A stretch of 32,684 nt of DNA from a virus. The notes under the pieces were generated by a model. That model saw only the letters and a program-made list of their open reading frames with translations, was not told the origin of the DNA and did no database searches. Positions 7,570 through 32,684 of the stretch are shown here, piece by piece (the stretch's first letter is position 1; the number at the start of each line of letters is the position of its first letter). The DNA is taken from the IMG/VR virus record IMGVR_UViG_3300049856_000276, positions 1-32,684 of that record; one strand, written 5' to 3'. The position numbers and the translations under genes are program-made.

Positions 7570-9912
7570 GTGATGGCAAAAAAGAAAACGCCCACACCAG
7601 AAACAGAGGGTGTGAAGGAAGAAACACGCCCAAAAACACGCAAGCGAGATAAAATAGACGATAACACGCTGATGGCTATTGTTGACGCGGAGCTTGCCGA
7701 TGCAATGGGCAAATCAGGATCAAGGCTATCGAAAGACCGTGAAAAGGCGCTGAGATATTACAACGGCGAAGCGGTCAACGAACTGTCGCCACCGGAAGCA
7801 GAAGGCCGCAGCCGTGTCGTGTCGCTGGACGTATCGGATACTGTTGAATGGATATTGCCGAGCCTGCTTAAAATATTCACCTCAAGCGACGAAGCCGTGG
7901 TGTTTGAGCCCGCCTCAATAGAGGACGAAGAGGCAGCGGAGCAACAGACCGATTACGCCAATTATGTATTTTATCGCCAAAATAACGGCTTTGTTATTTT
8001 GCATAATTTCATCAAAGACGCACTTTTGCAGCGCACTGGCATTTTAAAGGTTTGGTTTGAAAAAAAGAAAGACGAAACCCGCGAGGAATACGAGGGCTTA
8101 ACGGACATGGAGTTGGCGAAGCTCCTGCAAGACCCTGAAGTTGAACCGATTGAGCATAGCCAGATTGACGAGCCTGTATCTTTACCGGATGGCACGCAGG
8201 TAACGCAGGCGCTCCACAGCGTTACGCTAAAGCGCACAAAGGACAATTCAAAAATTTGCATTGATAACATCCCAAACGAGGAATTCTTATTTAGTCGTAA
8301 GGCGCGTTCAGCCGATAGGTTGTTTTCCTGTCATCACAGGGTACTCAAAACCATCTCTGAGCTAAGGGCGATGGGTTACGACAATGTTGACCAGATCAGC
8401 CATGATGAATCCACGGCAGAATTCAACCAAGAGCGCCTTGAACGCGCTCGCCGCAATGATGAGTTTGCCTATAACGCCTCGGGGACTGGCGTCACGATGG
8501 ATGAGTCCATGCGTCAGGTATGGATTACAGAAAGCTATATCCAGGTTGATTACGACAATGACGGGATTGCGGAATGGCGCAAGGTAGTCAAAGCAAACAA
8601 GACGCTTCTTGAGAATGAAGAGGTAGACGATCACCCGTTTGTTATTGGCACGCCTATCCTGATGCCGCATGAATTGGTAGGCAAATCCGTTGCCGATCAG
8701 GTAATGGACATACAGCAGATAAAAACCGTTCTCACACGCCAGATGCTTGATAACATGTATCTGACGAACAACCCTCGCACGATTATCGACGAATCCAAGG
8801 GCGTGAATATAGATGATCTGCTCGACACGCGCATCGGTGGCATCATTCGCACAAAAGATATTGGCGCAGTTCAGCCTTTCGCCGTGCAGCAATTAAACCC
8901 TATCAGCTTCAGCGTGTTGGAATATATCGAAACGGTGAAAGAAAACCGCACAGGTGTCACTAAATACAATCAAGGGCTAGATGCCAACAGCCTGAATAAA
9001 ACCGCGACAGGCATCAACGCAATTATGGGGGCGGCACAGCAGCGCATTGAATTGATTGCCCGTGTAATAGCAGAAACGGGTGTGAAGGCGCTATTCCAGA
9101 AAATTATCAAGCTATCCCTGACGCACCAGAAGGTAGCGCAGACGATCCGCTTGCGGAATAAATGGAAAGACATTGACCCACGCAATTGGGAAACGCTTTA
9201 CGACCTGACGATTAACGTAGGGCTTGGCACTGGCAACAAAGACCAGATGGCGCAGCATTTGATGGGCATTCTTAATGTTCAAAAAGAAGCCATGGCAAGT
9301 GGCCTGCCTATCGTAGACGCGAAACACATTTACAACACGGCTTCCAAACTCGCTACCAACATGGGCTTTAAGGATGGGGATATGTTCTTCATTGATCCTG
9401 AGAGCGATGAAGCCAAACAGAAGATGCAGCAACAGCCTCCGAAGCAAGACCCCGAAGCAATCAAGGCGCAGGGTGAAGCCCAAGTGAAGATGACAAAAGC
9501 GCAGTCTGACGCAGCGATGGCACAGAACCAGCAGGCGGCCAAGATTCAAGAATTGCAACATCAACAGATGATTGATGCACAAGAGTCGATGGCGAAGATT
9601 GAAGCTGACAAACAGGTGGCGATTACACGATCAAATAACGATGCCGCGCTTGAACAGCAGAAGATGGAAAAAGAATACGCGCTCAAGCGTGAAATCGAGA
9701 TGATGAAAATTGCCAGTGCTTGTTATGTGAAAACCATAACGGCGAGTAAGGACGCGCAGCCCATCGAAGATGATATGTCTGTTAATCCCATGATGGAAAC
9801 GCTCAATAATCTTGTCGGTATGTTTGCTCACTCGATGAACGCACCCAAAAGCATAACCATGCAACGCCCTGATGGCACTGTTCTACAGGGAACCGTTCAA
9901 ACGGGCGGCTGA
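7570..9912 (+). CDS. Portal protein (podovirus type)
   Basis: A 780-aa protein of the head-to-tail portal family of short-tailed phages. Features include a Lys-rich start (AKKKTPTPE), SKDREKALRYYNG near residue 60, SLDVSDTVEWILPSL, and FIKDALLQRTGILKVWFE, followed in the second half by DIQQIKTVLTRQMLDNMYL and a glutamine-rich long helix (about 620-720) that would form the crown or barrel. Twelve copies form the ring through which DNA is packaged and ejected. The track start is GTG 7570, with ATG at the next codon; neither has a clear Shine-Dalgarno sequence. It lies just after terminase, and its stop overlaps the next start (TGATGG). Confidence 0.92.
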   Translation: MMAKKKTPTPETEGVKEETRPKTRKRDKIDDNTLMAIVDAELADAMGKSGSRLSKDREKALRYYNGEAVNELSPPEAEGRSRVVSLDVSDTVEWILPSLLKIFTSSDEAVVFEPASIEDEEAAEQQTDYANYVFYRQNNGFVILHNFIKDALLQRTGILKVWFEKKKDETREEYEGLTDMELAKLLQDPEVEPIEHSQIDEPVSLPDGTQVTQALHSVTLKRTKDNSKICIDNIPNEEFLFSRKARSADRLFSCHHRVLKTISELRAMGYDNVDQISHDESTAEFNQERLERARRNDEFAYNASGTGVTMDESMRQVWITESYIQVDYDNDGIAEWRKVVKANKTLLENEEVDDHPFVIGTPILMPHELVGKSVADQVMDIQQIKTVLTRQMLDNMYLTNNPRTIIDESKGVNIDDLLDTRIGGIIRTKDIGAVQPFAVQQLNPISFSVLEYIETVKENRTGVTKYNQGLDANSLNKTATGINAIMGAAQQRIELIARVIAETGVKALFQKIIKLSLTHQKVAQTIRLRNKWKDIDPRNWETLYDLTINVGLGTGNKDQMAQHLMGILNVQKEAMASGLPIVDAKHIYNTASKLATNMGFKDGDMFFIDPESDEAKQKMQQQPPKQDPEAIKAQGEAQVKMTKAQSDAAMAQNQQAAKIQELQHQQMIDAQESMAKIEADKQVAITRSNNDAALEQQKMEKEYALKREIEMMKIASACYVKTITASKDAQPIEDDMSVNPMMETLNNLVGMFAHSMNAPKSITMQRPDGTVLQGTVQTGG

Positions 9913-17453: not shown

Positions 17454-18886
17454 TGTTCGAGCCATTCATGCAAGACTTCACTCCAGACGCGCCATATCTG
17501 GAGGGCGGGGTAGGTGGTGGGGCGTTGAGTGGAGCGCCGCTTAATGTAATAAACGCTGGCAGGGGGTTCGCGCCATTCAAAGCCTACACGGCGCTCACTA
17601 CGACTTCCGGGCTTAGTGATATACCGTATGGTTCATTTTCATTCCGCGCCTCAAATGGGACTTATTATACATTTGCCGGGGAAAATACCGTGCTTAAGCG
17701 CGTGAGCGGCACTACTTGGGATGATGTTAGCCGGACGGTCGGCGGAAGCTACACTGGCAGCGGCGACCGCTGGAGTTTCGCGGCCTTTGGCGACCGCGTA
17801 ATCGCGGTGAATTATGTAGACGCAACGCAAAGCTACCTTGCTGGAACGGATACGGATTTCTCTGCCTTGGCAGGAAGCCCGCCGAAAGCGAAATACATAG
17901 ATGTTGCTGGAGACTTTGTTGTTTTAGGCTATGTCAACGACGGCACGGCGAGGCCTTTCCGCGTGCAGTGGTCAGCGCAGGGTGATCCCACGGCGTCATG
18001 GGCATCATCGGCCACCACGCAAGCCGATTATCAGGACATGAACAGCAACTACGGCGTGGTCACCGGCATATCAGGCTTTGAGGATGGTTTTTTCGTCTAT
18101 CAGGAAAGGGCAATCACCCCGTTCTATTACGAGGGGAGTCCGCTCATTTTTCGGCGCGGTGCAACCATCCCCGATATAGGTTGCATTGTGCCTAGTGCGC
18201 TTGTTAAAGCTGGCGGTGATGATTTTTTCCTGTCGCAAAAGGGATTCAAGCGTCGTTCCAGCAATTCCGTTATTCCTATTGGTTTAGGGCGCGTTGACGC
18301 AAGTTTTTGGGATTATTGGACGCAATACGCGATCAACGATAGCAATTTGATGACGGCTTTCGCTGTCCCTGATTATCCAGCGATTTGCTTCGCGGTGACG
18401 TTTGCCGCAGAGCAAGTCTCCCTTATCTGCTATAATTATCTGGCTGACAAATTCACATTCATTAATTTAAGCAGCTCATGTCAGGGAATGTGCGTAACGT
18501 ACAGCGCCACTTATCCGCGTGGGGTTATCTCGGGGTTCAAGGCCACTGACAACAAGCTCGGGACATTCACCGGCACGGCGTATAATGCGACATTCTACAC
18601 CCGCAATTTTACGGCTACTGAAAAGGGCGGCAGAGGCAGCATAGGGCGCATCAAGGTTTTATGCGAGGAAACCCTGCCTACATCAGTCAATCTTGGTTAT
18701 TACACCGGAGAGTTCCCATCTGGGGGCGGGTCAACCGTAGCGATGACTGCTGTAGGGAATAATGCCCAATACACGGAAAGACAAAGCAGCGTAGCATTTT
18801 TTGTCGGCGTTACTGTGAACCAATGGGCTTTGAAGTATCGGATGCATGGCGTTGACGTTCTGGAGGGTACGGAGGATAGTCGATGA
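17453..18886 (+). CDS. Tail hub/nozzle protein (P22 gp10-like)
   Basis: A 477-aa beta-rich protein beginning FEPFMQDFTPDAPYLEGG, then LNVINAGRGFAPFKAY, the opening usual for nozzle proteins. Repeated blades follow (WSFAAFGDRVIAVNYVD, KYIDVAGDFVVLGYVND, ITPFYYEGSPLIFRRGATIP, GGDDFFLSQKGFKRRS), giving a beta-propeller-like middle, and a C-terminal sandwich (GSIGRIKVLCEETLPTSVN). It is expected to form a hexameric tube closing the tail. Its start shares the adaptor's stop region, and its end overlaps the next ORF. Confidence 0.82.
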   Translation: MFEPFMQDFTPDAPYLEGGVGGGALSGAPLNVINAGRGFAPFKAYTALTTTSGLSDIPYGSFSFRASNGTYYTFAGENTVLKRVSGTTWDDVSRTVGGSYTGSGDRWSFAAFGDRVIAVNYVDATQSYLAGTDTDFSALAGSPPKAKYIDVAGDFVVLGYVNDGTARPFRVQWSAQGDPTASWASSATTQADYQDMNSNYGVVTGISGFEDGFFVYQERAITPFYYEGSPLIFRRGATIPDIGCIVPSALVKAGGDDFFLSQKGFKRRSSNSVIPIGLGRVDASFWDYWTQYAINDSNLMTAFAVPDYPAICFAVTFAAEQVSLICYNYLADKFTFINLSSSCQGMCVTYSATYPRGVISGFKATDNKLGTFTGTAYNATFYTRNFTATEKGGRGSIGRIKVLCEETLPTSVNLGYYTGEFPSGGGSTVAMTAVGNNAQYTERQSSVAFFVGVTVNQWALKYRMHGVDVLEGTEDSR

Positions 18887-19230
18887 GTTTCCCCGGCGCA
18901 CCACTGACCAAAATAGGTGATACGGATAATTGGGTGCAGCGCATTGCGATGGTTGTGAACTCGATCATGCAGGGGCGCACGAATAATTACGGCACTGTCA
19001 CGCTAACCGCGAATGCGGCAAGCACTACGGTAAATCTTGCCGCCGGGAGACTATCAACGGCGAGCGTCATATTGCTTGAGCCTCGCACGGCCAATGCCTC
19101 GGCGGAAATCGGCGCGGGAACGATTTATATTACAGCGGCGAATCACGATGTCGCAAACAACCGCTTTGTCATCACGCACGCTAATAACGCGCAGGTAGAT
19201 CGAGAATATGGATTATGTATTATTGGTTAA
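18883..19230 (+). CDS. Small tail-associated protein (115 aa)
   Basis: A 115-aa product with a helical start (NWVQRIAMVVNSIMQGRTNN) and a beta-rich rest (NYGTVTLTANAASTTVNL, TIYITAANHDVANNRFVITH). It resembles short proteins carried near tail-hub genes that may attach fibres or needles. ATGA overlap with the hub gene. Its last 11 bases overlap the end of the convergent HNH-type gene. Confidence 0.65.
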   Translation: MSFPGAPLTKIGDTDNWVQRIAMVVNSIMQGRTNNYGTVTLTANAASTTVNLAAGRLSTASVILLEPRTANASAEIGAGTIYITAANHDVANNRFVITHANNAQVDREYGLCIIG

Positions 19231-19960
19231 AATTCAATGCCTTATCAGCAGGCCACCCGCGCTTTATGCGATAGTATAATGTTAAAAATGGGATGTCTCG
19301 AATTTTTGCCCATTCTCGCATTGTACGAGTCTCGCTGCGATAGGTAAGAAGTATGTTTTTCTTAGCTAACGATTTAGGTTGAAGCACGCGATATGTATCT
19401 AACCCACGATTTAGTCGAGATATGAGCGTGCCATAATTAATTTCTAATTCTTCTGCCCATTGCGCTACTGTCCGTGTTTTGCCCGCATAGGTAATTAATC
19501 TGTTGTTTGTCACATTGTTTGCCTGCTCTTTGGCGGCAGCCCATTTGCAATTATCCGGCTCATAGTTGCCATTTGTATCAATACGCTCGATTGAATGGCT
19601 GCTCGATGGTTTTCGCCCCATATCTGCAAAGAAATTTTTGAATTTTCTCCATCTTTCGCAAACAGATATGCCGCGTTTGCCATAACAATAATATCGAGAA
19701 TTTTTAGGATTATCGCAACGATTACGCATTTCTGACCATGCTTTCCATTCTGGAGAATTGGACATGCCATGCTTTAAATTGTTACCAATATATTTCGGAG
19801 CGCATGGACATTCTCTACATGTTCCACGTCTTAGGTTAAGTGCATTGAACTCATCTTCTTTGCCGCATTCGCAGCGACAAAGAATCTTGCCTTGGGGCAA
19901 GCGATTGACGGCGGTCATTTTGCCGAAAGTTTTTCCTAACGTAATATCTTTCATATGCAA
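19220..19960 (-). CDS. HNH-type homing endonuclease-like protein
   Basis: A 246-aa protein. Residues about 28-55 hold a Cys-rich zinc ribbon (CRCECG, CRECPC). The core (about 70-145) has WKAWSEMRNRC, YGKRGISVCERW, FKNFFADMG and SIERIDTNGNYEPDNCKWA, the pattern of phage-encoded HNH/NUMOD-associated endonucleases. Two C-terminal HTH repeats (RTVAQWAEELEINYGTL and RTMREWAKIRDIPFLTL) should give DNA specificity. It lies antisense between two late genes, the typical state of a free-standing homing element. Possible own promoter TTGAAT-16 bp-TATCAT (minus strand, 19988 to 19961) abuts the start, so the mRNA may be leaderless, starting at the third codon ATG (19954). Confidence 0.75.
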   Translation of the reverse strand: MHMKDITLGKTFGKMTAVNRLPQGKILCRCECGKEDEFNALNLRRGTCRECPCAPKYIGNNLKHGMSNSPEWKAWSEMRNRCDNPKNSRYYCYGKRGISVCERWRKFKNFFADMGRKPSSSHSIERIDTNGNYEPDNCKWAAAKEQANNVTNNRLITYAGKTRTVAQWAEELEINYGTLISRLNRGLDTYRVLQPKSLAKKNILLTYRSETRTMREWAKIRDIPFLTLYYRIKRGWPADKALNFNQ

Positions 19961-20393: not shown

Positions 20394-21872
20394 ATGGGCG
20401 GAAAATCTGGCGGCGGAAATTCTACCGTTACGCAAAATGCAGACCCGTGGAGTGGCGTAGTCCCGTACTTAAAACAAATCCTAGGTGACTCGCAGGGGCT
20501 ATATCAGAACAAAACTCCGCAGTACGACCAATCTGCTTATGATGCCGCCCTGAAAGATTGGGAGGGCAAGGGCGGCGCGACGAATGCAACGCCGGATACA
20601 GCGGGCTATCAATCCGCGCTGGATAAGTGGAAGGCGTCGGCAGGCGGGAGTCAATCGCCGCTGGATCGTAATGCATGGCTGGTGCAAGAATCTGCGGCGG
20701 GGAAATCGTATCAGAATAGATCATCCGATCCAATGCAAACGGTGTCCGGTGCTTATGATGCGTATACCAAGGGATTTAAGCCCACAGCCCCGCAAGGCGC
20801 AGCGCCGACGCAAGACCAGTTTATGTCTTATGGCGCGGCTGGTGCAAAGCCTACGCTTGAACAGTTCACCGTTCCCGGCACTCAGGGCGCAAGTGCGCTT
20901 GCTCCGGCTTATTATCAGGGGCAAACTATTGCCGACCAATCCCCCGAAACACTGGCGGCAAACGCGCTCACCACAAGCAGGGCTTTAAACGGCTCGTCCG
21001 TGATGAACAATGCCAAGGATTACACCACAGGATTGCTTGGCGGGAGTTTCCTAAGCCCTGAAAGCAACCCATATCTCAAAGACACGTTCAATCGTGGCGC
21101 GGATCAGGTGCAGCAGCGCGTCAATAGTGCGTTTGGCAATGGCGGGAGGTTTGGCAGCGGCGTGAATCAAGAAGTGCTTGGTAAGGGCATGAACGACCTC
21201 GCAAGCCAAGTGTATGGGGGTGCGTATGATTCTGAGCGTAACCGTATGCAGCAGGGATTGCTATTCGCCCCTCAACTGGCAGCAAATGATTATCAGGACT
21301 TGTCGGCGCTCAGTAGCGTAGGCGCGAACAAAGACAGCAGATCGCAGGATGTCATCAATCAGAATATTCAGAAATACAATTACAATTCTAACCTCCCGTT
21401 CAACGCCATCACGAATTACAAGAACCTCGTAAACGGGAACTATGGCGGCGGCAGCTCGACGCAGACAACGCCGTATTCAAGTAATGGGGCGGCTACAGGC
21501 TTGGGCTTGCTTGGCGCGATGGGCGGCGTGGGTGGCCTTGGCAGCTTGCTTGGTGGCGGGACAGCAGCGGCAACCGGATTGCCATGGTTGGCGAGTGCTG
21601 GAACTGGTAGCCAGCTTGGTGCTTTAGGCAAGGCCGCAATGTCGGCATTTTCCGATGTGCGCCTCAAAGAAAACATCAAGCACATCGGCCACGAAAATGG
21701 CTTCCCCGTCTACGCGTTCAGCTACAAATCCGATCCCGATAAAATCAAGTATCGCGGCGTCATGGCGCAAGACTTACTCGAAATGGGCAGGGGCGATGCC
21801 GTGTCATGGCATGGTGAGTATATGGCCGTTGATTACAGCAAGATCGGCGTGGAGTTCGGAAGGATTCACTAG
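20394..21872 (+). CDS. Internal virion-like protein with S74 autocleaving chaperone
   Basis: A 492-aa protein. Residues 1-150 are Gln/Ala/Gly-rich and low complexity; about 165-350 is helical (LKDTFNRGADQVQQRVNSAF). Residues about 365-400 form a Gly-rich hydrophobic stretch (GLGLLGAMGGVGGLGSLLGG) that could span a membrane. The last 75 residues are a peptidase S74 intramolecular chaperone beginning SDVRLKENI, with the Ser-Lys pair five residues apart that drives self-cleavage, and ending with the MAQDLLE and VDYSKIGVEF motifs. S74 domains normally fold fibres; here the context (before ejection genes) suggests an internal or needle protein. Confidence 0.72.
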   Translation: MGGKSGGGNSTVTQNADPWSGVVPYLKQILGDSQGLYQNKTPQYDQSAYDAALKDWEGKGGATNATPDTAGYQSALDKWKASAGGSQSPLDRNAWLVQESAAGKSYQNRSSDPMQTVSGAYDAYTKGFKPTAPQGAAPTQDQFMSYGAAGAKPTLEQFTVPGTQGASALAPAYYQGQTIADQSPETLAANALTTSRALNGSSVMNNAKDYTTGLLGGSFLSPESNPYLKDTFNRGADQVQQRVNSAFGNGGRFGSGVNQEVLGKGMNDLASQVYGGAYDSERNRMQQGLLFAPQLAANDYQDLSALSSVGANKDSRSQDVINQNIQKYNYNSNLPFNAITNYKNLVNGNYGGGSSTQTTPYSSNGAATGLGLLGAMGGVGGLGSLLGGGTAAATGLPWLASAGTGSQLGALGKAAMSAFSDVRLKENIKHIGHENGFPVYAFSYKSDPDKIKYRGVMAQDLLEMGRGDAVSWHGEYMAVDYSKIGVEFGRIH

Positions 21873-22217: not shown

Positions 22218-23162
22218 ATGGCCGGTTTGCTCGATATATTAGGTGGACTGCTTGGAGGGAATCAAGCCGGTATGCAGAATATGCAAGGCGGCGATATGTC
22301 TGCCATGTCTCCCGGCGACATACAGGGTTTATTGGCGCAGCGCAGGCAGCAGGGGCTTATTCAGGGGCTTTTGCAGGCGGGTCAGCCGTCCCCCTACAAA
22401 AAGAACTTCGGGCAGGTGCTTGGCGAAGGGCTTATGGGAGCGCAGAACGCTACCCGTGGCCTTGAGGATTCCGTACTGGCTGCGAGAATCAAAAACATGA
22501 CCCCCGATTGGGGCGAAACAAAAGATGCATTTGGGAATCCGATTGCTTTTAATAAGAATGACCCATCAAAAACCATGCCCATCGGCGGCACTCAGGTCAA
22601 TGCAAAGCCCGTAAGCGAATTCCAGCAGTACGCAATGGATACGGCAAAACAGAATAAGCTGGATTCACAGACCGAGCGTTACAGCAAAACCCTTGAAAGC
22701 ACGGGGTTATCAGATCTTACGGCAGCGGCAGAAAGAGCCAATCAGGCTGTGGCGGGCGATGGGGATATCGCGGGTTATGGCGAAATGGTGGGGGCATTGC
22801 CAGATTGGATGGTGTCTGGGAAGGGCGTGGATACTAGGCAGGAAATCGCGAATCTCCAAAACGCCATTCTTAAGGCGCGTTCTGGTGGCGCAGTAACCCC
22901 ATCAGAAGCCAATAGATTCATGTCTGAATTAGGCGCTGGCTTTGGAAGGGGCGATAGCAATCTTCGCAAAGGTATTGCAAATATCACCGCATCATTGCAG
23001 GAAAAAATCAATAATTCCCGCGCAGGATTTTCACCCGAAGCAGTCAATCAATACGAGGATAGGGGCGGCAACGTTACCAAGGATAGGCTCTCTAAGTTCC
23101 TGCCAACTGCAAACGGACAGATGCAAACCAAATCAGGGATTAAATATAAGGTGGTGCAATAA
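22218..23162 (+). CDS. Ejection/internal virion protein (314 aa)
   Basis: A 314-aa protein with a hydrophobic, Gly-rich start (MAGLLDILGGLLGGNQAG) and Met/Gln-rich segments, then a helical domain (QQGLIQGLLQAGQ; VGALPDWMVSGKGVDTRQE; ASLQEKINNSRAGFSPEAVN) and a short C-terminal SGIKYKVVQ. Size, composition and position between the S74 gene and the large ejection gene match internal proteins that short-tailed phages eject to form the periplasmic channel. AAGGAG precedes ATG 22218. Its stop overlaps the next start (TAATG). Confidence 0.7.
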   Translation: MAGLLDILGGLLGGNQAGMQNMQGGDMSAMSPGDIQGLLAQRRQQGLIQGLLQAGQPSPYKKNFGQVLGEGLMGAQNATRGLEDSVLAARIKNMTPDWGETKDAFGNPIAFNKNDPSKTMPIGGTQVNAKPVSEFQQYAMDTAKQNKLDSQTERYSKTLESTGLSDLTAAAERANQAVAGDGDIAGYGEMVGALPDWMVSGKGVDTRQEIANLQNAILKARSGGAVTPSEANRFMSELGAGFGRGDSNLRKGIANITASLQEKINNSRAGFSPEAVNQYEDRGGNVTKDRLSKFLPTANGQMQTKSGIKYKVVQ

Positions 23163-24691
23163 TGCGGATAGAGCTTGAAACAGGCCAAAAGCTAGAGCTT
23201 CCAGACGGCTCTACTCCAGACCAGATTGACGAGGTGGTCAGTCACTTCCAATCGTCTATGCCGCAGCAGGACGCACCGCAACCGAAACGCCCGGACGTTG
23301 ATTTATTCGATACGGTAGGCGACAAATTCCTGCAAGGGGCTACTTTTGGCATAGGAAACAGGGCGCAGGCAGGGCTTGCGGCTCTTGCCTTGAGTGCTAT
23401 AAATGACAAGCCGATAGCGGAAAACTACAAAGACGCACGGGAATTGGGAACAGCACGCCTTGCCGCCGAGCAAGAGCAGAATCCAAAAACGTCAATCGGC
23501 GCGAACATTGTGGGGGCGGTAGGGACAGGTGGGCTTGCAGCAGGAACAAAACTCGGAGCGGCTACTGGCAATTTACTTCGCGGTGGCAACCTCGCGGCGC
23601 GTGTGGGTAAGGGCGCGGTGGCTGGTGCGGCTTCCGGCGCTGCGTATGGCGCGGGAACGGCTGAATACGACAAAAGCCTTGAGCGTGCGGGCGAGGGTGC
23701 TGTTTCTGGCGCTTTGGTTGGCGGGGCTATTCCCGTTGCTGGTGCGGTAGCCAGCGATCTGCTTAAAACCGGCAAGAATGCCGTAATTGGAGCTTTTGCT
23801 AAATCACCTGAGGCCGTACAAGACGCGGCCAAGTCACTCCTGAAGATTGGTGGAAATACTTACGAACAAATGCGCCAAGTAGGCGCTACATTTAAGCCAA
23901 GCGCGGTGCAGGGCTTTTTGCTTAAAGACGTTGACACGGCTATTGCAAAAAACAATTTCATTCCTGCGCTCAACCCAAAAACCACAGCGATCATTGATGA
24001 TCTAAAACAAAAAGCGGCAAGTGGCGGCCTTGGCTTAGACCAGCTTGACCAATATCGTAGGATGTTAGGCCGTATCGGTGGCAGCGAAGATGGCGTGTCG
24101 GCAGGCGCGGCAAGGAAGGCTATAGATGACTTTGTAAATAGCGCGAATTCTACGCATTTGGTGAGCGGCGATATAAAAGCCGTTTCTCTATTAAATAAAG
24201 GCCGTGCTCAATACGCACAGGCATCAAAATATGATGATATTGCTGATATTCTGGCAAAAGCAGACGGCGACCCTAATAAAATCAAAGCTGGATTAACCCG
24301 CTTTTGGAAAAACACAGACAACACCCGTGGCTGGACGCAATCAGAAATTGCGACATTAAAAGATGCGGCAAGTGGAAGTGGTGTTGAAAAGTTACTTAAA
24401 ATGGGTGGTAAGTTTGGCGTTGATCTTGGTTCTTCCCTGAATGTTGGGAATACGGTCGCGCCGTTGGTTGGCTATGGCGTAGGCGGCGGCGTTGCTCCTA
24501 TAGCTGGGACGGCAGCCCGTGTGGGGCAAAAACTAGCGGCCAGAGGTAAAGCGCAAAATCTCCTGAATGTACTTGAAGGTGGAGGGAATCCTATGGGGCA
24601 AGGTGGTAATGCAATATCCCCACTCCTGTCTGCTCCTGGCGGTGCAACCGCAGGCGCAATTAGCATTAATCGCTCCCGCAGGCGCAATTAG
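23162..24691 (+). CDS. Large ejection protein, C-terminus cut by frameshift
   Basis: A 509-aa product. Residues 1-60 include a short beta start (RIELETGQKLELPDGSTPDQ), then FLQGATFGIGNRAQAGLAAL. Residues about 105-205 are Gly/Ala-rich and hydrophobic (AGAASGAAYGAG, GAIPVAGAVASDL), suited to membrane insertion. A helical second half ends with VGQKLAARGKAQNLLNVL. The last residues RSRRRN are read through the second copy of a 28-bp tandem duplication and meet TAG at 24689. Without the extra copy the frame would run on into the transglycosylase at 24705-25160, giving a 656-aa ejection protein with a C-terminal muralytic domain. Confidence 0.78.
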   Translation: MRIELETGQKLELPDGSTPDQIDEVVSHFQSSMPQQDAPQPKRPDVDLFDTVGDKFLQGATFGIGNRAQAGLAALALSAINDKPIAENYKDARELGTARLAAEQEQNPKTSIGANIVGAVGTGGLAAGTKLGAATGNLLRGGNLAARVGKGAVAGAASGAAYGAGTAEYDKSLERAGEGAVSGALVGGAIPVAGAVASDLLKTGKNAVIGAFAKSPEAVQDAAKSLLKIGGNTYEQMRQVGATFKPSAVQGFLLKDVDTAIAKNNFIPALNPKTTAIIDDLKQKAASGGLGLDQLDQYRRMLGRIGGSEDGVSAGAARKAIDDFVNSANSTHLVSGDIKAVSLLNKGRAQYAQASKYDDIADILAKADGDPNKIKAGLTRFWKNTDNTRGWTQSEIATLKDAASGSGVEKLLKMGGKFGVDLGSSLNVGNTVAPLVGYGVGGGVAPIAGTAARVGQKLAARGKAQNLLNVLEGGGNPMGQGGNAISPLLSAPGGATAGAISINRSRRRN

Positions 24692-24704
24692 CATTAATCG
24701 CTCC
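24649..24704 (+). repeat. Perfect 28-bp tandem duplication (frameshifting)
   Basis: Copies at 24649-24676 and 24677-24704 are identical over 28 bp. As 28 is not a multiple of three, the second copy shifts the downstream frame by +1, ending the ejection protein early and placing the transglycosylase in another frame. Both copies encode AGAISINRS in turn, in the two frames. Deleting one copy restores a single ORF exactly. Confidence 0.97.
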
Positions 24705-25160
24705 ATGCCACAGGCATTACCACAAGGCTATGGTCAGGAAGTTACGCTTCAACCTATGAGCAAGCAAAGCGTTGAAACTATAGGCGACCAATCTAACTCT
24801 GCACCCGATGACCTTTTCCAGCGCGTTATTCAAGCCGAAAGCGGCGGGAATCAGTCGGCTGTATCAAACAAAGGCGCAATCGGCGTGGCGCAAATCATGC
24901 CTAAAACCGCCCCGGACGCAGCAAAGGCCGCTGGCCTCCCTTATGATCCCAAACGGCTTAAAACCGATCCTGAATACAACGCCGCGCTCGGCAAGGCATA
25001 CCTCGACAAAATGCTTGATAAGTACCAAGGCAACGAAGCCCATGCGCTTATGGCTTACAATTGGGGGCAGGGGAACGTTGATATGTGGCTAAAATCCGGT
25101 GGTGATCCAAGAAGGATACCGAAAGAGACGAAGGATTATCTAACTAAAATTTTGGGGTAG
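24705..25160 (+). CDS. Lytic transglycosylase (SLT) domain, detached
   Basis: The 151 codons after the duplication encode a soluble lytic transglycosylase fold: LFQRVIQAESGGNQSAVS with the catalytic Glu, GAIGVAQIMP, and HALMAYNWGQGNVD. Such enzymes cut peptidoglycan between MurNAc and GlcNAc and, on ejection proteins (as in T7 gp16), open the wall for DNA entry. In this sequence it is out of frame with its likely parent. The frame is open from 24567, with ATGs at 24567, 24612 (near AAGGTGG) and 24705, but none has a convincing ribosome-binding site. It may be expressed by reinitiation, or be silent until the duplication collapses. Confidence 0.78.
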   Translation: MPQALPQGYGQEVTLQPMSKQSVETIGDQSNSAPDDLFQRVIQAESGGNQSAVSNKGAIGVAQIMPKTAPDAAKAAGLPYDPKRLKTDPEYNAALGKAYLDKMLDKYQGNEAHALMAYNWGQGNVDMWLKSGGDPRRIPKETKDYLTKILG

Positions 25161-32016: not shown

Positions 32017-32684
32017 GCGGATGCCTCCAGTTCTGCCAGACGCTTCATATCGGCCATGGCAGCATCGTTGTTGTCGTAGAAACGCGGCATGGACACGGGA
32101 AGCGGCGAGCTGGCGTGGTAGATCAGTGATGCGGCCAGCGCCGTATCGTGGAACGCCTCCAGCTTCTTGCCTTCCTCTCCGGCGAGCGTAACCACCCAAC
32201 CGGCGCGGCAATGTGTTGTCTCGCAGGTGTGCCATGCACCCATGTTAAAAGCATTGGGCTTTGAAACCGCCTCGTACACTTTTTGGTGGATGTTCTCGAT
32301 CTTCGGTACGTCGATGCGCTCGACTTTTATGGGCTTGTTGTCAGTCAGGCCCGAGCAGCCCGAGCAGTCCGAGCAGCCCGAGCAGTCCGAGCAGCGCGAG
32401 CAGCCCGAGCAGCCCGAGCAGCGCGAGCAGCGCGAGCAGCGCGAGCAGTCCGAGCAGCCCGAGCAGCCCGAGCAGCGCGAGCAGTCCGAGCAGTCCGAGC
32501 AGCCCGAGCAGCGCGAGCAGCGCGAGCAGTCCGAGCAGCGCGAGCAGTCCGAGCAGCCCGAGCAGCGCGAGCAGTCCGAGCAGCCCGAGCAGCGCGAGCA
32601 GCGCGAGCAGTCCGAGCAGCCCGAGCAGCCCGAGCAGCCCGAGCAGCCCGAGCAGCGCGAGCAGTCCGAGCAGTCCGAGCAGCC
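32013..32684 (-). CDS. (G/D/R)-C-S repeat protein, N-terminus off the window
   Basis: The frame is open from the stop (32013) to the right edge, 223 residues visible. The first 112 residues seen are pure tripeptides X-C-S with X being Gly, Asp or Arg. A 30-residue linker with KVERIDVPKIENIHQKVYEA follows, then MGAWHTCETTHCRAGWVV and a helical end (DNNDAAMADMKRLAELEA). I recall phage proteins ending in the same W-H-T-C-x-T-T-H-C-R-A-G-W domain, with D-L-S or G-C-S type triplets before it, but no function. It is translationally coupled to the exonuclease (ATGA). The Cys-rich solenoid could bind metal or form a fibre. Confidence 0.65.
   Translation of the reverse strand, partial: GCSDCSDCSRCSGCSGCSGCSGCSDCSRCSRCSGCSDCSRCSGCSDCSRCSDCSRCSRCSGCSDCSDCSRCSGCSGCSDCSRCSRCSRCSGCSGCSRCSDCSGCSDCSGCSGLTDNKPIKVERIDVPKIENIHQKVYEAVSKPNAFNMGAWHTCETTHCRAGWVVTLAGEEGKKLEAFHDTALAASLIYHASSPLPVSMPRFYDNNDAAMADMKRLAELEASA
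32350..32684 (-). repeat. Perfect 9-bp tandem repeat, at least 37 units
   Basis: On the plus strand the unit is CGAGCAG preceded by one of just three dinucleotides: CC (14 times), TC (11) or CG (12). The 7-bp constant part is identical in all 37 units, with no synonymous change. On the coding minus strand the dinucleotide sets the first residue of each triplet (Gly, Asp, Arg). The window ends inside the array, so the true length is unknown. Confidence 0.97.

Follow-up and report, generated by a model that had tools for sequence, protein, structure and literature searches.

The window, by which we mean the whole stretch of DNA analysed here, comprises all 32,684 bp of an IMG/VR virus record from a short-tailed, uncultured phage. 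This phage carries a P22-like terminase together with LUZ24/PaP3-like portal and capsid genes. A string check found zero N in the 32,684-bp record, and a nucleotide search of its first 25 kb against phage records returned no match. TRF also identified a 9-bp array (GCCCGAGCA, ~37 copies, 89% match) at 32349-32684 that reaches the record end, and the assembly probably stopped inside it. The features at the locus are listed below, with reference to the closest relative found, IMGVR_UViG_3300045391_000123 (L030).

20394 to 21872, plus strand: gene with an S74 chaperone domain, an upstream virion/ejection gene (phrog_4287, 'DNA ejection protein') with an L030 homologue in the matching place
22218 to 23162, plus strand: 314-aa gene adjoining ORF-A on its upstream side, in an order that matches L030
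23162 to 24691, plus strand: ORF-A, the putative ejection/internal virion protein part, 509 aa, truncated (phrog_5880; L030 identity; strong SD)
24567 to 25160, plus strand: ORF-B, an open frame with an SLT lytic transglycosylase domain (PF01464, E=1.1e-23)
24648 to 24675, plus strand: copy 1 of a 28-bp unit, read as AGAISINRS in the ORF-A frame
24676 to 24703, plus strand: copy 2 of the 28-bp unit, read as AGAISINRS in the SLT frame and containing the TAG of ORF-A (24689-24691)

ORF-A matched phrog_5880, a family of unknown function, at E=2.8e-17, and tblastn gave weak similarities to EBPR podovirus 2 gp29 (1e-4) and to a phiGT1 'putative internal virion protein/injection protein' (9e-3). Its ejection label is putative and draws on its position, the phrog_5880 match, and this weak similarity to annotated injection proteins. 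The SLT-domain part of ORF-B, which comprises the C-terminal 151 aa counted from 24705, is a plain PF01464 family member that scored 83 bits against a cut-off of 21, and its catalytic Glu motif set (QAESGG...GVAQIMP...AYNWG) is intact. The original prediction had placed the beginning of the transglycosylase frame at 24705; the frame is in fact open back to 24567, and so overlaps ORF-A by 125 nt.

At the tandem repeat, TRF reported a period of 28 with 2.0 copies and 100% match at 24648-24704, and a direct string check found the unit, CCGCAGGCGCAATTAGCATTAATCGCTC, present twice, so the two methods agree with the earlier claim that identical 28-bp copies sit where the ejection frame is lost. The base 3' of copy 2 is the same as the first base of the unit, and the intervals 24649-24704 and 24648-24703 therefore describe one repeat whose phase is ambiguous by 1 bp. 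Microhomology at the duplication ends amounts to 1 bp and is uninformative. None of the 12-mers of the unit occurred elsewhere in the record on either strand, and by simple base counting (our own estimate) a sequence of 32.7 kb has a negligible probability, on the order of 10^-12, of containing an exact 28-bp tandem repeat by chance. In a comparison set of 19 records that were related or carried an SLT (558 kb in total with the window), just one further exact tandem repeat had a period of at least 20 that was not a multiple of 3 (127 bp, in record L017).

As predicted, ORF-A ends at 24691, inside copy 2. With the flanking residue included, copy 1 reads TAGAISINRS in the ORF-A frame and copy 2 reads PAGAISINRS in the SLT frame; the identical peptide appears in two frames, the outcome that a 28-bp duplication within one continuous frame must yield. 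The 656-aa length previously given for a one-copy product is arithmetically correct, being (1999-28)/3 - 1.

Potential start sites were scored as SD duplex energies with the anti-SD (kcal/mol), including three in-frame ATGs of the SLT frame. The three genes upstream scored -8.4, -8.7, and -9.1 kcal/mol, with ORF-A at -9.1. Among the SLT ATGs, 24705 gave +1.3 kcal/mol (i.e., no SD) and 24567 gave -0.1, while 24609 had an SD-like stretch (AAGGTGGT, within 24600-24611) at -8.3 kcal/mol with a spacing of ~1 nt.

L030 encodes a single uninterrupted 649-aa ORF with no stop. ORF-A aligned to its residues 5-506 with 63-64% identity, and the C-terminal end of the 649-aa ORF matched the SLT part at 76% identity. 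The surroundings are shared, since in both records a gp10-like gene is followed by small genes, the S74 gene, a ~311-aa gene, and then the gene in question, whereas the L030 linker differs, lacks the 28-bp repeat, and leaves the ORF unbroken; in this sole relative checked, no tandem repeat was found in the linker. The arrangement is also interrupted upstream in the window, where an HNH endonuclease gene (19220-19960, minus strand; phrog_3377, E=3.2e-61) occupies a ~766-bp insertion that separates 115-aa and 131-aa genes, a pair that abuts in L030. In L030, one arm of a 61-nt inverted repeat (9247-9307 / 9599-9659, 97% complementary) falls in the beginning of the 311-aa gene (LLQAGQPSPYKKNFFQALGEA), and its partner falls in an ORF on the minus strand whose start resembles that of a lipoprotein. 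Because the arms lie inside two opposed ORFs, the same peptide is encoded by both strands, and the repeat may be either a genuine inverted duplication or a fault of the assembly.

A search of related phages for the fused ORF, as the original prediction had proposed, thus found it in L030, the only close relative. A protein search of viral_contigs with ORF-A alone gave no match, and pair-alignment scans of viral_contigs together with two degenerate DNA patterns led back to L030, all other contigs found being distant or unrelated. That L030 alone was close after these scans indicates a thinly sampled lineage. The only genome_contigs matches were two Devosia proteins (L014 and L015, 674-688 aa), which resemble host Slt enzymes and were not taken as fusion evidence; homology of the L014 protein to the window was confined to the SLT domain. 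An AlphaFold model of the fused L030 protein had a mean pLDDT of 41, too poor for use.

The fused ORF of L030, the peptides of the two copies, and the lack of an SD at 24705 together indicate that the two ORFs are better taken as the halves of a single gene than as two genes, in keeping with the original proposal that the duplication splits one protein. From these comparisons, it is strongly supported that the ancestor of the window encoded a single ejection protein of ~650 aa with a C-terminal SLT domain, and the ancestral fusion would be drawn from a single outgroup (one close relative) plus the internal frame evidence.

The break itself carries signs of youth. Between the window and L030, differences in the SLT domain at codon positions 1/2/3 were 0.15/0.13/0.56, and no further stop or frameshift was found in the SLT domain of the window relative to L030. 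Judged from these codon positions, the domain is one that has been under strong past purifying selection. The 100% identity of the copies argues that the duplication is young, and the codon-position constraint with the intact catalytic motif argues that the break is recent; on this sequence comparison, it is recent relative to the split between the window and L030. Most simply, replication slippage would have produced the exact 28-bp tandem duplication, which shifts the frame by +1 in the linker that joins the ejection and SLT parts. The two-copy allele therefore encodes a 509-aa ejection protein ending just past copy 1, and the SLT domain is left in a frame without a good start at 24705. Reversion to one copy would be expected in principle. 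A recent frameshifting duplication in a single ancestral ejection-SLT gene is the best explanation of the locus, and we consider it probable.

An assembly or consensus artefact is possible, although clearly less probable. In that case the real phage would have one copy and an unbroken gene, and either a 28-bp overlap join or the choice of a rare read variant would have introduced the second copy. The source is an IMG/VR contig and the fused form is the state of L030, both of which fit such an origin, and a comparable frame-breaking exact repeat, that of 127 bp, sits in a circular-marked record. This repeat, in L017 (Achromobacter phage CF418P1), spans 18298-18551 at the 3' end of the terminase gene. 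A length of 127 is a common assembler k-mer length, which points to an assembler overlap left untrimmed in the circularised L017 record; from this length and the circular record, join artefacts probably occur in such records. The 28-bp repeat is less easily obtained in this way. Its 57 nt fit one short read and an assembler normally needs junction reads, so the presence of both copies within one short read argues against pure assembly error. Also counting against an artefact are the absence of the unit's words from the rest of the record, the lack of N runs, and the length of 28, which to our knowledge is not a usual final k-mer size.

It is improbable that the gene is functionally split, with SLT made separately via ATG 24609 or by coupling to ORF-A termination and still contributing to virion function or lysis. 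In favour of such a split, the SLT domain is intact, and initiation in the SLT frame at 24609, with its SD of -8.3 kcal/mol, would produce a protein of 183 aa. However, the spacing of ~1 nt is too short, and the SD-like stretch doubles as ORF-A coding sequence (MGQGGN); this poor spacing and coding overlap are what make a separate product unlikely. Initiation at ATG 24705 would proceed without an SD, no standalone SLT ORFs were seen among the relatives examined, and a separate SLT would presumably be without a packaging partner. Programmed +1 frameshifting was rejected as well, as inspection by eye of the overlap at 24567-24691 found no CCC-TGA-like or other canonical slippery site.

Less credible still is the reversible switch that had been suggested, in which slippage between one and two copies toggles the fused ejection-transglycosylase and is selected across host states. 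A unit length not divisible by 3, exact copies, and a location in a linker would all suit a switch, and there is bacterial precedent. According to the work of Waite (2001, 2003), as cited in PMC4022640, spontaneous tandem duplications in pneumococcal capsule genes lead to phase variation. As described there, those duplications resemble the one in the window in being spontaneous, exact, tandem, frame-breaking, and revertible, but they were shown by experiment in bacteria, whereas the window is a single phage record. The repeat is also unconserved, being missing from the L030 linker (the only relative to compare), and a single duplication is indistinguishable from a one-off mutation. An exact 28-mer search of viral_contigs, a set that may leave out records very near the window, gave no match, and hence no one-copy sibling allele was found. 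A limited literature search for published phage slippage switching gave no direct match. We therefore think it highly unlikely that populations hold one-copy (fused, wall-cutting) and two-copy (off) alleles that shift with host growth state. If both alleles were real, they would place a phage virion enzyme under slippage control.

The suggestion of a decaying prophage found no support, as no integrase match was found among the window ORFs scanned and the genes for terminase, portal, capsid, tail, and lysis functions have their full length.

On balance, the locus has the appearance of an ordinary frameshift of recent date, or perhaps of a minor-variant or assembly artefact, and not of a shown switch. 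A virion with the two-copy allele would carry the ejection protein minus its wall-cutting domain. Loss of the SLT domain may be tolerated, because the virion wall-degrading domains of T7 and TM4 are required only in certain states of the host and because a more distant homologue in ctXG6705 is without a C-terminal SLT. In TM4, the Tmp motif is dispensable for viability but helps the phage to infect stationary cells (PMC1796659). Automated annotation of this locus would report two separate products, an ejection protein and a small lytic transglycosylase, where the lineage has one fused protein. The main value of the finding is this caution for annotation; otherwise it represents a recent frameshift in one uncultured phage.

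With respect to known systems, the originally suggested fit to the T7 gp16 class could not be upheld. The two are alike in outline, in that an SLT-family domain is joined to an ejected internal protein. In T7 gp16, the transglycosylase is at the N-terminus of a protein of 1318 aa (PMC8954989), whereas in the lineage of the window it is C-terminal in a protein of about half that size (~650 aa; residues 524-649 of 649 in L030). Homology is confined to the SLT domain: the match to phrog_342 ('internal virion protein with endolysin domain') covered SLT only, at profile positions 23-140 of 1235, and ORF-A had no phrog_342 match in the profile search. The protein is closest to the ejection proteins of LUZ24/P22-like podoviruses. 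Like the LUZ24/PaP3-like and P22-like ejection proteins, it is encoded where the virion gene block ends, and its ejection part is weakly similar to theirs; a 455-aa ORF of ctXG6705 (L025) matched this part at 5e-16. Unlike the lineage of the window, phiGT1_19, EBPR podovirus 2 gp29, and the ctXG6705 ORF are without a C-terminal SLT, and in EBPR podovirus 2 and phiGT1 it is the next gene upstream that is annotated as a peptidoglycan hydrolase. Among the relatives compared, only the lineage of the window has a C-terminal SLT on such an ejection protein. This C-terminal transglycosylase reverses the domain order of T7 and fits the mosaic exchange of this domain that is known among ejection proteins.
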